Source: an uncultured Lachnospiraceae bacterium (GTDB taxonomy: Bacteria > Bacillota > Clostridia > Lachnospirales > Lachnospiraceae). Taken from it: a DNA stretch of 32,184 bases. The notes below the pieces were generated by a model. The model had not been told where the DNA came from. It worked only from the letters and a program-made list of their open reading frames with translations, and did no database searches. Positions 4,353-22,485 of the stretch are shown one piece after another. Position numbers and translations under genes: made by a program. The number at the start of each line of letters is the position of its first letter. The first letter of the stretch is position 1. The stretch is from positions 1-32,184 of the forward strand of contig CALWGP010000015.1 in assembly GCA_944380095.1 (NCBI GenBank). The letters are read 5' to 3'.

Positions 4353-4645
4353 ATTCAGACAAAGGTAAGGACGAAGAGGAGTACGCACCCCATTGGCTGT
4401 CAGAGAGGATGCCCCGCCGGCTGTAAGGGCATTTCAGCACAGGATGCGGAACGTGGCTTCGGAACCGAAGGGCCAAACAGCGTTCCAGCCCGCAAAAGCG
4501 GCGGGCGTTTTAAGTAGGCCTTTCCGGCTGATCCCCGTTACAGGATGGAAAAGAGGCTGTCTGGGCGCAATGCCGGACAGTGAACAAAGGTGGTACCGCG
4601 GATGAAACGCCCTTTGACGAGCTTTGGCTTGTCAAAGGGTTTTTT
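4353..4645 (+). promoter_or_regulatory. T-box riboswitch leader, valine-specific
   Basis: A tRNA-sensing leader that lets valS be transcribed when uncharged tRNA-Val accumulates. The T-box sequence AAAGGTGGTACCGCGG is at 4586-4601, followed at once by an intrinsic terminator. In Stem I, CGAAG (4372-4376) pairs with CTTCG (4457-4461). Above it lies a specifier loop with AGTA (4380-4383) facing GAAC (4449-4452), closed by CGC (4384-4386) and GCG (4446-4448). The triplet after GAAC is GTG (4453-4455), a valine codon that fits the downstream gene. The class assignment is secure; the specifier position is my own fold by eye. Confidence 0.93.
4610..4645 (+). terminator. T-box-controlled intrinsic terminator
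   Basis: The arms CCCTTTGACGAGC and GCTTGTCAAAGGG form a 13-base stem with a GU pair and a short TTTG loop (4610-4639), followed by six T. This is the terminator that competes with the T-box antiterminator. Confidence 0.92.
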
Positions 4646-18454: not shown

Positions 18455-20233
18455 CTATTCTACGTTTTTAAACTGGCTCATATACAGATCGTAATAAAAT
18501 CCCTTTTTTGCCAAAAGCTGGGCAGCGTTGCCTTCTTCAATGATCCGCCCGTCGTCGATGACAAAAATCCGGTCCGCTTTCTGGATGGTGGAAAGCCGGT
18601 GGGCGATGACAAAGGAGGTCCGCCCGGCCAGCAGATGTTCAATCCCCTCCTGGACCAGGATTTCGGTGTTGGTGTCGATGCTGCTGGTGGCTTCGTCCAG
18701 AATCAGGATGCGGGGGTCGGAAACCATGGTGCGCGCAAAAGCCAGAAGCTGTTTCTGGCCGATGGACAGGCCGCCGCCCCGTTCCGAAAGCACCGTGTCG
18801 TAGCCCTGGTCCAGCTTCATAATAAAATCGTGGGCATTGACGGCCTTTGCCGCCGCCTCGATTTGTTCGTCCGTGGCATCCAGCCGCCCGTAGCGGATAT
18901 TGTCCCGGATGGTGCCGGAGAAGAGGAAATTGTCCTGGGTCATAACGCCCATCTGCCGGCGGAGACTTTCGATGGATACCTTTGTAAGGTCATAGTCGTC
19001 GATATAAATATGTCCTTTTTGAATGTCGTAAAACCGGCTGATCAGGTTGACGATGGTAGTCTTTCCGGCGCCGGTGGGGCCTACCAGGGCGATGGTTTCC
19101 CCGGGACGCACCCGGAAGCTGACATGGTCCAGCACCCGGCGCTGGCCGTCATAGGAAAAGGAAACGTCGTCAAAGGTGACCTGTCCCTGGATGGGGGGAA
19201 GTTCCTTTACATCCGGATCATCCTTGACGGAAGGCTTGGTATCCATGATTTCAAAGATCCGTTCCGCCCCGGCGATATTGGTGACAATCTGGTTGTAAAA
19301 ATTGCTCAGGTTCATAATCGGCCGCCAGAACATGGAAATATAGGAACCAAAGGCGATGAGGGTCCCCACGGAAACCCGGTCCGTCCCCAGGACGACAATG
19401 CCCGTAAAGTACAGGGAAATGGTGCCCAGTCCCCAGCAAAAGTCAATCACCGAGCCGAAGGCGTCGTTTAAACGGACCGCGTCGATAAAGGACTGGCGGT
19501 GTTCCTTTGTGAGGGTGAAAAAGGTATCCGCCGTTTCGCGCTCCGCGGTGAAACTCTGGATGATCCGGATGCCGGACAGATCCTCGTGGATGAAAGCGTT
19601 TAGGTTGGAGGACTTTTTCCGGTGGATCTGCCAGCGCTTATGGGAAAATACCTGGATGAACCACATGCAGCCGGCCATCAGGGGCAGGCTGACCAGGGAA
19701 GCGGCCGCAAGGACGGGATTTTTCACAAACATAATGGCCACTACGGCGCAGATGGTGAAAAAGTCCGGAAGCAGGGTGGTAACGCAGTTGCCCATCACAT
19801 CCTTTAAAGAATTGATATCCCCGATAATCCGGGCAAGGATTTTGCCCGTGGGACGGCTGTCAAAAAACTGGAAGTCCAGTGTCTGGATGTGGGTGTAAAG
19901 CTGCTGGCGGATGGTCACCAGGATATTGTTGCACAGTTTGGCCATGATCCACATGCGCAGCTTCACGCCCAGGATCATCAGGACGTTTAAGGATACCGCA
20001 AAAAGGATCAGACGAAAAAGGCCGGGAAAGTCCCCCGCAGAAATCCGGTTGTCAATGGCCTCTTCCATGATCAGCGGGTTAAGCAGGGTGACGCAGACGC
20101 AGAAAGCCATGATGGCAAGCACGCCGGCAATCTGTTTTTTGTAGTCCAGCAGATAGGAAAAAAGCCGCAGCAGCGTCTTCATTTTCCCCACTTCTACGCT
20201 GGTTTCATCGTCTTTATAGGAATTGAAAGCCAT
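18455..20233 (-). CDS. Heterodimeric ABC exporter, catalytic-Walker-B subunit
   Basis: 592-residue half-transporter with an N-terminal six-helix membrane domain and a C-terminal ATPase domain. It has Walker A GPTGAGKTT, Walker B ILILDEATSSID with the catalytic Glu, and an H-loop in IAHRLS. Its signature is LSIGQ (489-493), where isoleucine at 491 replaces glycine. The gene directly upstream, ending six bases before this start, encodes the partner with LSGGQ but no catalytic Glu, so the two complete one another. The ATG at 20233 has GGAGGTG upstream. It is the second gene of the operon and faces thiN tail to tail; I see no terminator in the 27 bases between. Exporters of this kind handle drugs, lipids or peptides; the substrate is unknown. 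Confidence 0.93.
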   Translation of the reverse strand: MAFNSYKDDETSVEVGKMKTLLRLFSYLLDYKKQIAGVLAIMAFCVCVTLLNPLIMEEAIDNRISAGDFPGLFRLILFAVSLNVLMILGVKLRMWIMAKLCNNILVTIRQQLYTHIQTLDFQFFDSRPTGKILARIIGDINSLKDVMGNCVTTLLPDFFTICAVVAIMFVKNPVLAAASLVSLPLMAGCMWFIQVFSHKRWQIHRKKSSNLNAFIHEDLSGIRIIQSFTAERETADTFFTLTKEHRQSFIDAVRLNDAFGSVIDFCWGLGTISLYFTGIVVLGTDRVSVGTLIAFGSYISMFWRPIMNLSNFYNQIVTNIAGAERIFEIMDTKPSVKDDPDVKELPPIQGQVTFDDVSFSYDGQRRVLDHVSFRVRPGETIALVGPTGAGKTTIVNLISRFYDIQKGHIYIDDYDLTKVSIESLRRQMGVMTQDNFLFSGTIRDNIRYGRLDATDEQIEAAAKAVNAHDFIMKLDQGYDTVLSERGGGLSIGQKQLLAFARTMVSDPRILILDEATSSIDTNTEILVQEGIEHLLAGRTSFVIAHRLSTIQKADRIFVIDDGRIIEEGNAAQLLAKKGFYYDLYMSQFKNVE

Positions 20234-20239
20234 ATTATT

Positions 20240-21970
20240 TTACACCTCCCCGTTAAGCCAGGACCCGTACTGGGCCTGCCATGTTTTGTAATAAAGCCCT
20301 TTTTGGGCAAGAAGCTGTTCGTGAGTGCCCCGTTCTGCCACGCGCCCGCCCTCCAGGACGAGGATTTCGTCGGCATGCCGGACCGCGCTGATCCGGTGGG
20401 CGATAATGATTTTGGTGGTGCCTTTCAGCTGCGCCAAAGATTGCTGGATGGCAAATTCCGTCTCCATGTCCAGGGCGCTGGTGGAGTCGTCCAGCACCAG
20501 CACGGGCGTATGCTTCGCCAGGGCCCGCGCAATGCTGATGCGCTGTTTCTGTCCGCCCGAAAGCCCCACGCCCCGCTCGCCGATGACCGTATCATAGCCG
20601 GATTCCAGCCGGTCGATAAATTCGGAAGCCTGGGCGTTTTGGGAAGCCGTAACCACTTCCCCGGCGGTGACGCGGCCTTTTTTCCCAAGGACCACGTTTT
20701 CGCGGATGGTATCGGAAAAAAGGAAAACGTCCTGCATTACGGAGGAAATGCTGCTGCGAAGCTGGGACAGGGACAGATCCCGGATGTTCACCCCGTCCAG
20801 ATAGATGGCGCCGTCCGTTGCGTCATAGAGACGCTGGAGCAGCTGGATGATGGACGTCTTGCCGCTGCCCGTAGCCCCCATGATGCCCACGGTCCCGCCG
20901 GCTTTTACATGGAAGGTGATGTCGCTTAAAATTTCGTGCAGGTCCGCTTTGTGGAAAGAAACGTGCTCAAAGCGGATATCGCCCTGTACCTGCTTTAGGA
21001 CTACGGGATGTTCGGACTGCGTGATCACGGGCTTTACCGCGTAGATCCGCTTGATTTTGCGATAGCTTCCCACTGCGGAGGAAAAGTCGTTGGACAGCCA
21101 GCCCAGCATCTCCATGGGCCAGACAATGTTGGTGGAATATTCCACAAAAGCGGTCAGGGTACCCAGCGTCATTTCGCCTTGCATATAGAGGAACCCTCCC
21201 AGAAGCAGGATGACCAGGGGAAGGAGCTTGCCGATCAGGGAAAACCAGGGGGAGTAGCGCACGAAAACCCTGGACTGTTTCATATTCAGGTCATAATAGC
21301 GGCGGTTGTGGGAAAGGAATTTGGCGATTTCAAATTTTTCGCGGGCAAAAGCCTTGACCGTGCGTACGCCGGCCAGATTTTCCTCCGCCACGGTATTGAG
21401 CGCCGCGTTTTCTTCGCTGATGTCCTCATAAATCTGCCCCAGGCGGCTTTCCATGCGCAGGGCCAGCACGGCGCAGAAAATCATGCAGCAGGTGGGCAGG
21501 ACCGCCAGCTTCCAGCTTAAGCTGTACATACAGACCAGGATGACCGTCACATGGAAGATGACTTCCAGAATCAGCATGCTGACATAGCCTACGGCATTCC
21601 AGATGCGGTCGATGTCATCCTTGACCCGGGCCATGAGTTCGCCGGTCTGGGTGCGGTCAAAAAATTCCGTGCTCAGCGACTGGATATGGGCAAACAGGTC
21701 GCGGCGCATGTCGGTGGCGATGGAGGCGGAGATACGGTCGAAGGTAAATTCCTTGGCGTAGCCGAAGATACACCGGCCCACGCCTACGGCCAGGATGCCT
21801 CCCAGAAGATATTTCAGCTTCTCCATTTCCCCGCCCACAATGACGTCGTCTACAATGTGACGGGTCAGCTGCGGGGACAGAAGATCCAGGGAAACGGCAA
21901 TCATCATGGAAAGGATCGCAAAAAGATAGCCCCCGATGTGCTGTCCCAGATAAGCGGTTAGCTTTTTCAT
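20240..21970 (-). CDS. Heterodimeric ABC exporter, degenerate-site subunit
   Basis: 576-residue half-transporter with six membrane helices and an ATPase domain: Walker A GATGSGKTS, canonical signature LSGGQ, and Walker B VLVLDDSTSALD, in which D495 takes the place of the catalytic glutamate. The H-loop histidine (IAHRIS) is retained. Together with the downstream gene this gives one competent and one degenerate ATP site, as known for TM287/288 and BmrCD. The ATG at 21970 has AGGGGG nine bases before it; a TTG 21 bases further upstream is in frame but not supported. It is the first gene of the operon. A weak TATTAT lies upstream but no good -35, so the promoter is unclear. Confidence 0.93.
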   Translation of the reverse strand: MKKLTAYLGQHIGGYLFAILSMMIAVSLDLLSPQLTRHIVDDVIVGGEMEKLKYLLGGILAVGVGRCIFGYAKEFTFDRISASIATDMRRDLFAHIQSLSTEFFDRTQTGELMARVKDDIDRIWNAVGYVSMLILEVIFHVTVILVCMYSLSWKLAVLPTCCMIFCAVLALRMESRLGQIYEDISEENAALNTVAEENLAGVRTVKAFAREKFEIAKFLSHNRRYYDLNMKQSRVFVRYSPWFSLIGKLLPLVILLLGGFLYMQGEMTLGTLTAFVEYSTNIVWPMEMLGWLSNDFSSAVGSYRKIKRIYAVKPVITQSEHPVVLKQVQGDIRFEHVSFHKADLHEILSDITFHVKAGGTVGIMGATGSGKTSIIQLLQRLYDATDGAIYLDGVNIRDLSLSQLRSSISSVMQDVFLFSDTIRENVVLGKKGRVTAGEVVTASQNAQASEFIDRLESGYDTVIGERGVGLSGGQKQRISIARALAKHTPVLVLDDSTSALDMETEFAIQQSLAQLKGTTKIIIAHRISAVRHADEILVLEGGRVAERGTHEQLLAQKGLYYKTWQAQYGSWLNGEV

Positions 21971-22018
21971 AAGTAAAAACCCCCTGATCAATAATAAGTT
22001 GTATGAATGGATTTAAAA

Positions 22019-22130
22019 GTATAAAAAAGTGTGCGCCGGGGCGCACACTCGCGCCGAGCGCGGTTGCCGTCAGGCAACACTCTACTTTTCGCGCGAGTGC
22101 GCATCCTCAGCGGAGCGTCTTTTTTTATAC
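22019..22130. repeat. Palindrome-rich intergenic element
   Basis: The 112-base element is bounded by GTATAAAAAA (22019-22028) and its exact reverse complement (22121-22130). Inside are an 8-base stem GTGTGCGC/GCGCACAC (22029-22048) with a CGGG loop, and a 6-base stem GTTGCC/GGCAAC (22063-22078) with a GTCA loop. A long-range pairing of GCGCACACTCGCGC (22041-22054) with GCGCGAGTGCGC (22091-22102) is an alternative to the first stem. This nested design suggests a dispersed palindromic repeat of REP or MITE type rather than unique regulatory DNA, but copy number cannot be judged here. Confidence 0.6.
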
Positions 22131-22163
22131 GATAGGAAATGAAATTTCCTATCGTATAAAAAA
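22121..22163. repeat. Perfect 20-base palindrome with 3-base loop
   Basis: The arm 22121-22140 and the arm 22144-22163 are exact reverse complements (core ATACGATAGGAAAT and ATTTCCTATCGTAT) around GAA. Each strand reads T6, hairpin, A6. It could act as a bidirectional terminator or as the end of the neighbouring element. Confidence 0.85.
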
Positions 22164-22193
22164 GAGCCGTTTGGGAAAGACTCCCGACGGCTC
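22158..22193 (-). terminator. Leftward intrinsic terminator 2
   Basis: On the minus strand GAGCCGT and ACGGCTC form the outer stem (22164-22193), with GGGA/TCCC inside, followed by six T (22163-22158). Its T run is also one arm end of the adjacent palindrome. It would stop leftward transcripts before the ABC operon. Confidence 0.8.
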
Positions 22194-22244
22194 CTTTGGG
22201 CGAAAACAGGCCCGCGTCCTGTCCGCGGCAGAAAAACCGGACAG

Positions 22245-22280
22245 AAAAAAAGCCGCAGCATAAAAGTCGATTGCTGCGGC
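22245..22280 (-). terminator. Leftward intrinsic terminator 1
   Basis: On the minus strand GCCGCAGCA pairs with TGCTGCGGC (22252-22280), followed by seven T (22251-22245). This is a canonical terminator just downstream of the 28-codon gene, and serves both it and any mntP read-through. Confidence 0.88.
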
Positions 22281-22289
22281 AAAACTGCG

Positions 22290-22315
22290 AAAACGGGATG
22301 AAACCATCCTGTTTT
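22290..22315. terminator. Hairpin at the end of the 28-codon gene
   Basis: AAAACGGGATG (22290-22300) and CATCCTGTTTT (22305-22315) pair over 11 bases, with one GU pair and a four-base loop. One arm touches the stop codon of the small gene. It lacks a long T run, so it may protect the 3' end of the transcript rather than terminate on its own. Confidence 0.55.
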
Positions 22316-22400
22316 AATGTATCGCGCTACCGGAGGCAATCTGAATATGATCATAATCGGCAGAATCCATTTTCATTCCAAACGCAGCGAACAATAACAT
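22314..22400 (-). CDS. 28-aa small protein beside mntP
   Basis: A 28-codon gene, too short for ordinary gene calling. Upstream is AAAGGAGGT, a full match to the 16S anti-Shine-Dalgarno, with seven bases between GGAGG and ATG. The product begins MLLFAAFGMKMDSADYDH and ends IQIASGSAIH. It has a short hydrophobic start (six residues) and a polar, acidic centre (D12, D15, D17, H18) that could bind a metal, though this is only a suggestion. There is no full membrane helix, cysteine or double-glycine leader. A promoter-like TTGACA lies upstream, and a strong terminator follows. It lies 103 bases after mntP on the same strand. I do not recognise it. Small-protein regulator, peptide signal or leader peptide are all open. 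Confidence 0.68.
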   Translation of the reverse strand: MLLFAAFGMKMDSADYDHIQIASGSAIH

Positions 22401-22456
22401 AACAGTACCTCCTTTCCTTAATTTTTGTTTTTTTGTGTCCTGCTTCGTATATCCTT

Positions 22457-22485
22457 ACCCTATCATCCGGGATAACAGCTGTCAA
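22457..22485 (-). promoter_or_regulatory. Possible promoter for the 28-codon gene
   Basis: On the minus strand a perfect TTGACA (22480-22485) is followed after 17 bases by TAGGGT (22457-22462), which matches only half of the -10 consensus. It lies just behind mntP, about 57 bases before the small ATG. Confidence 0.45.

Follow-up and report, generated by a model that had tools for sequence, protein, structure and literature searches.

A candidate ribosome-mediated transcription attenuator with a short leader ORF upstream of a heterodimeric ABC exporter operon in Lachnospiraceae

Introduction

Attenuation of bmrB-bmrCD in B. subtilis has been demonstrated experimentally with lincomycin, chloramphenicol, and erythromycin, and both translation of the leader and the binding of lincomycin to the ribosome were shown to be necessary (PMC4191407). 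The bmrB ORF has 54 codons, with the three predicted structures, the terminator among them, lying inside nt 60 to 162 (PMC4191407). Much shorter ORFs, of three codons each, control ABC-F ribosome-protection factors, i.e., uORF(MIN) of vmlR in B. subtilis and uORF(MRI) of cplR in C. difficile (PMC9226507, PMC10201436). Excerpts of two further reports bear on ABC transporters: a terminator, an antiterminator, and an anti-antiterminator are predicted before the drug-exporting ABC operon patAB of Streptococcus pneumoniae (PMC4319486), and the “ABC-leader” class, defined computationally, groups premature terminators that precede ABC transporters, among them a multidrug system of lactobacilli (PMC2965389). 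Our literature search found no Lachnospiraceae leader in which the Shine-Dalgarno sequence (SD) of the ORF pairs with an anti-SD; an earlier report in Dar et al. 2016 (Term-seq) is possible.

The DNA analyzed here is a stretch of 32,184 nucleotides from an uncultured Lachnospiraceae bacterium (the window), in which a 28-codon ORF precedes the genes for two ABC exporter subunits. It is highly probable that this ORF is translated and acts as the sensor of a ribosome-mediated transcription attenuator for the downstream heterodimeric ABC exporter operon, like bmrB-bmrCD. The ORF, its promoter and terminator, the exclusive pairings, and the linkage to the exporter are established by sequence and statistics.

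The leader ORF and its signals

The features of the locus, in the direction of transcription, are as follows.

22480..22485, minus strand: −35 box TTGACA of the leader promoter, read from the sequence
22457..22462, minus strand: −10 box TAGGGT, with a 17-nt spacer and an upstream TG (extended −10), read from the sequence
22406..22413, minus strand: R1, AGGAGGTA, the Shine-Dalgarno that serves the leader ORF and the predicted 5′ strand of the anti-antiterminator, an SD:anti-SD helix; the MFE fold pairs it with R2
22400..22314, minus strand: leader ORF MLLFAAFGMKMDSADYDHIQIASGSAIH, 28 codons, read from the sequence, with equivalents upstream of exporter orthologues
22330..22341, minus strand: R2, GATTGCCTCCGG, lying within the ORF, where it encodes (Q)IASG; predicted anti-SD and 5′ strand of the antiterminator, conserved in the genus
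22291..22313, minus strand: small hairpin GGATG GTTT CATCC after the stop, found by folding and nested in the predicted antiterminator
22269..22280, minus strand: R3, GCCGCAGCAATC, terminator 5′ arm and predicted alternative partner of R2 (nascent-RNA fold; own-versus-swapped pairing)
22245..22280, minus strand: T1, intrinsic terminator with stem GCCGCAGCA/TGCTGCGGC and then T7 (hairpin plus T run; fold)
22157..22197, minus strand: T2, second terminator GAGCCGTCGGGAG...ACGGCTCTTTTTT, −21.2 kcal/mol
21970..20240, minus strand: ABC exporter subunit 1, BmrC-like (Pfam PF00664 and PF00005), with Walker B LVLDD and a canonical LSGGQ
20233..18455, minus strand: ABC exporter subunit 2 (Pfam PF00664 and PF00005), with Walker B LILDE and a degenerate signature, LSIGQ

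The first-pass annotation had described an SD, an ATG, 28 sense codons, a TAA, a hairpin, a strong leftward terminator, and an upstream TTGACA, all of which were confirmed from the minus-strand sequence. The SD AAAGGAGGT is followed by ACTGTT and the ATG, giving a spacer of 6 nt after AAAGGAGGT and 7 nt after GGAGG; the combination of AAGGAGG, spacer, and ATG occurs only three times in the 32-kb window, both strands counted together, the leader ORF being one of the three. T1 begins 33 nt past the leader stop codon, and its arms (22280-22272 and 22260-22252) form a hairpin of −17.1 kcal/mol. The promoter layout recurs in three genus relatives (G012, G005, and G011), and T1 is followed by another terminator-like hairpin in each of the genus members that have the leader, four in all (the window, G012, G005, and G011; L005, L006, and L007 as loci), which suggests two-step attenuation. 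The last part of the ORF has complementarity both to the SD of the ORF and to the terminator arm, a feature that the first-pass annotation does not mention; nor does it mention the exporter genes that follow. In addition to this RBS-bearing short ORF, the leader has an intrinsic terminator before the structural genes and a predicted antiterminator overlapping the terminator 5′ arm, as leader-ORF attenuators do. The short ORF is very probably translated, and it has a promoter and a terminator of its own.

The exporter genes are the next genes downstream of the leader ORF, on the same strand. In subunit 1 the catalytic glutamate of Walker B is replaced by aspartate (LVLDD). The best single-subunit PDB match of subunit 1 is BmrC (YheI), at 328 bits, a likeness to bmrB-bmrCD; that of subunit 2 is TM0288, at 410 bits, with BmrD/YheH lower, at 334 bits. 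One degenerate ATP site is an established property of the heterodimeric exporters BmrCD, TM287/288, and LmrCD. Judged by its motifs, the pair in the window has unequal ATP sites, one of them degenerate, as such heterodimeric exporters do; in this it would resemble BmrCD and TM287/288, and it presumably transports drugs.

Mutually exclusive RNA pairings

The predicted pairings R1:R2 (SD:anti-SD), R2:R3 (antiterminator), and R3:R4 (terminator, R4 being the 3′ arm) are mutually exclusive. Terminators were located by hairpin and T run alone, as the first after the leader, and R2 was located by SD complementarity alone. The R2:R3 duplex was far more stable between a leader's own strands than between swapped ones (−14.0 versus −9.7 kcal/mol in 46 loci, with 0 of 10,000 permutations as good), and it remained so after clustering of the leaders to 42 (−13.6 versus −9.9 kcal/mol in 39 clusters); z scores for own versus swapped pairing were −8 to −10.

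In the window, the antiterminator would pair GAUUGC (22341-22336) with GCAAUC (22274-22269) and CGG with CCG, and the R2:R3 fold is the MFE structure (−26.1 kcal/mol) of a nascent transcript that begins at R2 and stops just short of the 3′ terminator arm, these folds being thermodynamic and leaving out cotranscriptional kinetics. All four genus leaders fold into a GAUUGC:GC(A/G)AUC plus CGG(C):(G)CCG antiterminator. The pairings in the window fall short of the strongest in the family: R1:R2 includes a G:U pair, and R2:R3, of ∼9 pairs with an internal loop, ranks 13th of 46 in the swap. Between 22420 and 21960, the minus strand folds much more stably than shuffled versions of it (z, −6.9), and part of this excess comes from an unrelated palindromic repeat.

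Distribution among exporter orthologues

A family-wide set (one genome for most genera), together with named loci, provided 141 distinct regions upstream of exporter orthologues, in which a leader was defined strictly as a short ORF led by AGGAGG and the opposite strand served as the control. Such an ORF was present in 106 of the 141 regions but in only 1 of 150 on the control strand, an excess over chance. About a quarter of the orthologue upstream regions have no leader under this strict AGGAGG criterion. Leader ORFs were found at 65 of 78 named orthologous loci and at none of 13 loci of paralogous ABC genes in the genus.

Orthologues of the exporter with 80 to 92% identity occur in four genus members. 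The nearest named relative is “Candidatus Eisenbergiella merdigallinarum,” with an exporter 92% identical to that of the window, which places the window in a Lachnospiraceae genome resembling Eisenbergiella. ORFs at the same position were found in G012 (MLLYAAFNPIDQNAVHDGFSHKIASGHFSR), G005 (MLWFAAAFQGINKASAPYTGAAHNTEIASGPRG), and G011 (MLLYAEQIRSIHNLTDDNVTIASGICVY); in G003 only 40 bases of contig precede the exporter. Eisenbergiella tayi DSM 26961 (L093) has the leader MSNGNRKITAASDNENRLGIASWYYNASLTF.

A sigma-70-type promoter (TTGAC-N17..19-TANNNT, ≤120 nt upstream of the SD) was found in 41 of the 42 leader clusters, with 0.3 expected from shuffles, and a terminator lay ≤150 nt from the leader stop in 39 of 42, compared with 2.4% in shuffles. 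In 90% of clusters, R2 ends 15 to 35 bases ahead of the stop codon (median, 20).

Conservation of RNA bases rather than peptide

The leader peptides, mostly of 23 to 50 residues, are largely unrelated. The peptide of the window has no family match in Pfam or NCBIfam, and a search for it in 98 relatives, a check proposed in the first-pass annotation, returned only the window itself and two matches at chance level. Among the four leader peptides of the genus, three start with MLL(F/Y)A and one with MLWFA, and the middle of the peptide diverges even where the exporters of the species are 92% identical.

The conserved element is instead a CCTC(C) near the end of the ORF, present in most leaders and encoded as IASG, ITSG, LPP, TACL, or SVCL. 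CCTC occurs in 72 of 106 leaders, with 16.3 expected from shuffling of codon order, and the exact 6-mer complement of the leader's own SD occurs in 54 of 106, with 1.9 expected from the same shuffling. Among the 69 leaders with a single CCTC, it begins at codon positions 1, 2, and 3 in 8, 49, and 12 cases, respectively. The anti-SD is thus read in three frames (e.g., ITSG, LPP, and ACL), and selection therefore acts on RNA bases and not on amino acids. Covariation is also seen beside this core: the triplet preceding CCTC changes with the bases following AGGAGG, e.g., TAA with TTA and CAG with CTG, with 189 of 207 pairs formed versus 170.5 when partners are swapped (standard deviation, 2.7). 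The length of ORF between R1 and R2 is strongly variable. No Rfam covariance model matched the leader at gathering score, either here or in 20 relatives, and permissive thresholds gave only chance matches, mostly on the palindrome.

Proposed mechanism and alternative explanations

Transcription is predicted to start ∼50 nt upstream of the ORF and to end by default at T1 (and T2). During normal growth, ribosomes would traverse the ORF and R2, emerging behind them, would pair with R1; R3 would then be free for R4, T1 would form, and the exporter would be off. A ribosome held at or near the ORF start, or a queue of ribosomes over the ORF, would mask R1, so that R2 would pair with R3 before R4 is made, blocking T1 and allowing polymerase to continue into the exporter genes. 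Any stall before R2 would be enough and the peptide sequence would be largely irrelevant, which may be why the peptides have drifted. The end of R2 would lie just upstream of the position of a terminating ribosome, and R2 could thus reach R1 once the last ribosome had passed. We infer that the ORF is translated and that the switch works in cells. Ribosome-inhibiting antibiotics are the likely natural signal because of the analogy with bmrB-bmrCD, vmlR, and cplR.

The same attenuator could instead respond to amino acid starvation or another translation stress, and its architecture does resemble that of the trp and his leader attenuators. Attenuation specific to an amino acid was rejected, as the 106 leaders neither share a codon nor show codon repeats (runs of at least three occur in 17, with 11.7 expected); the target, moreover, is a drug-type exporter and not a biosynthetic operon, and we regard a starvation or other such stress signal as unlikely.

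The peptide itself might be the product, i.e., a small peptide for export, or a signal, on which the ABC pair acts, as could be argued from the position of the ORF beside the exporter and from the MLL(F/Y)A or MLWFA start of the genus leaders. This reading is very improbable, given a middle that diverges between species with a 92% identical exporter, anti-SD bases in three frames, the lack of a family match, and an exporter in which Pfam finds no peptidase domain.

Selection on RNA bases rather than peptide and a predicted default product that is a terminated RNA of ∼200 nt would also suit an untranslated structured RNA or small RNA with an incidental ORF, but 106 divergent leaders keep an SD of at least 6 bases, correct spacing, and a frame open through R2 despite variable frame and length, which makes this scarcely credible.

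Equally hard to credit is a small protein that works with MntP or in metal efflux, which the first-pass annotation had raised as a possibility: the ORF does adjoin mntP in the window genome, G012, G005, and L094, but linkage follows the exporter and not mntP, the leader owns a separate promoter, and the peptide sequence is not conserved.

Neighborhood of mntP

In the window, mntP (PF02659) lies 103 bases before the leader ORF. In E. coli, MntS is a small ORF discussed with an MntP-type pump, and the likeness of the window leader to it is confined to this context and is an analogy only; linkage of the window leader with mntP is not conserved. In the fetched flanks of the 78 named orthologous loci, mntP was found at 2 and the ORF at 65, so the linkage that the first-pass annotation suggested looking for is not conserved. 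Inspection of the 400 bases after those mntP copies of G007, G004, G011, and G003 that are not next to the exporter revealed no such ORF. Conversely, the exporter orthologue of G011 has a leader ORF and no mntP upstream; the end of the gene before that leader resembles a cation-efflux-type protein found beyond mntP in the window. Of the earlier proposal, a real small protein possibly tied to metal efflux, the very probably translated ORF is thus supported and the tie to metal efflux or MntP is not, since linkage follows the exporter. An MntS-like small protein associated with MntP was accordingly set aside as a candidate.

Comparison with described attenuators

The preferred reading, a ribosome-mediated attenuator, places the window leader close to bmrB-bmrCD, with which it shares a short ORF, translated or predicted to be so, before a heterodimeric multidrug-type ABC exporter and the predicted set of terminator, antiterminator, and anti-antiterminator. 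By description, the two differ in that the terminator lies inside the coding region in bmrB and after the stop in the window and in that the predicted anti-antiterminator of the window uses the ORF's own SD, unlike that of bmrB. Because of these two differences, the leader is not classified as bmrB. With vmlR and cplR it would share the principle that a ribosome stalled on the leader ORF prevents formation of an anti-antiterminator or an ORF-sequestering hairpin, so that the antiterminator forms; the family of the window, however, has ORFs of ∼23 to 50 codons and would control a membrane exporter, and the SD of the vmlR uORF is described as single stranded, whereas an SD of the window type is predicted to belong to a helix.

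The patAB leader is similar in its predicted three-structure attenuator upstream of a drug-exporting ABC transporter operon, but transcription starts only 67 bp from patA and the excerpted report describes no leader ORF (PMC4319486). The “ABC-leader” class likewise comprises attenuators predicted upstream of ABC operons, and in the excerpt of its source no SD:anti-SD leader ORF is described (PMC2965389). Neither of these published exporter attenuators is described in the excerpts with the layout of the window (PMC4319486, PMC2965389).

The same design with different peptides appears to recur across many gut Lachnospiraceae. If the proposed mechanism is correct, a multidrug-type exporter in many of these bacteria is under an inducible control that annotation lacks and that escapes gene finders, peptide homology, and Rfam alike, and sub-inhibitory concentrations of ribosome-targeting drugs could turn on efflux in commensals. 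R1, R2, R3, and R4 provide a concrete, testable RNA logic, and short nonconserved ORFs may be recognized as real through conserved RNA complementarity rather than peptide conservation. More tentatively, such leaders may form a widespread, peptide-independent class of attenuators in Bacillota in which the ORF's own Shine-Dalgarno is the sensor strand that reports a ribosome at the ORF start, a single design through which many translation inhibitors would induce heterodimeric exporters; we regard this extension as plausible but somewhat less likely than not.

Other observations

Exporter homologues from other Bacillota families (L178, L181 to L185, and L189; 43 to 47% identity) are preceded by SD-led leader ORFs and then terminators, apparently in the layout seen in Lachnospiraceae. 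In L181, R2 TAGCCC is complementary by eye to GGGCTA of the terminator arm. The leaders of L181 to L183 have a common peptide end, LQDSPAFFE, unlike those of Lachnospiraceae, and this conserved end may reflect a specific stall there.

Between T2 and the exporter start, at ∼22010-22170, the window contains a multicopy repeat with 11 matches in its own genome, partial copies included, which comprises a 20-bp perfect palindrome and GC-rich hairpins. Close relatives are without this repeat, which stands at this place in the window strain only, and the distance from leader to exporter is 343 nt in the window versus 172 to 206 nt in genus relatives. With two more terminator-like hairpins, the repeat could lower read-through. 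Elsewhere in the window, at 4359-4617 on the plus strand, a T-box leader (RF00230) was matched at gathering score, with 97.4 bits.
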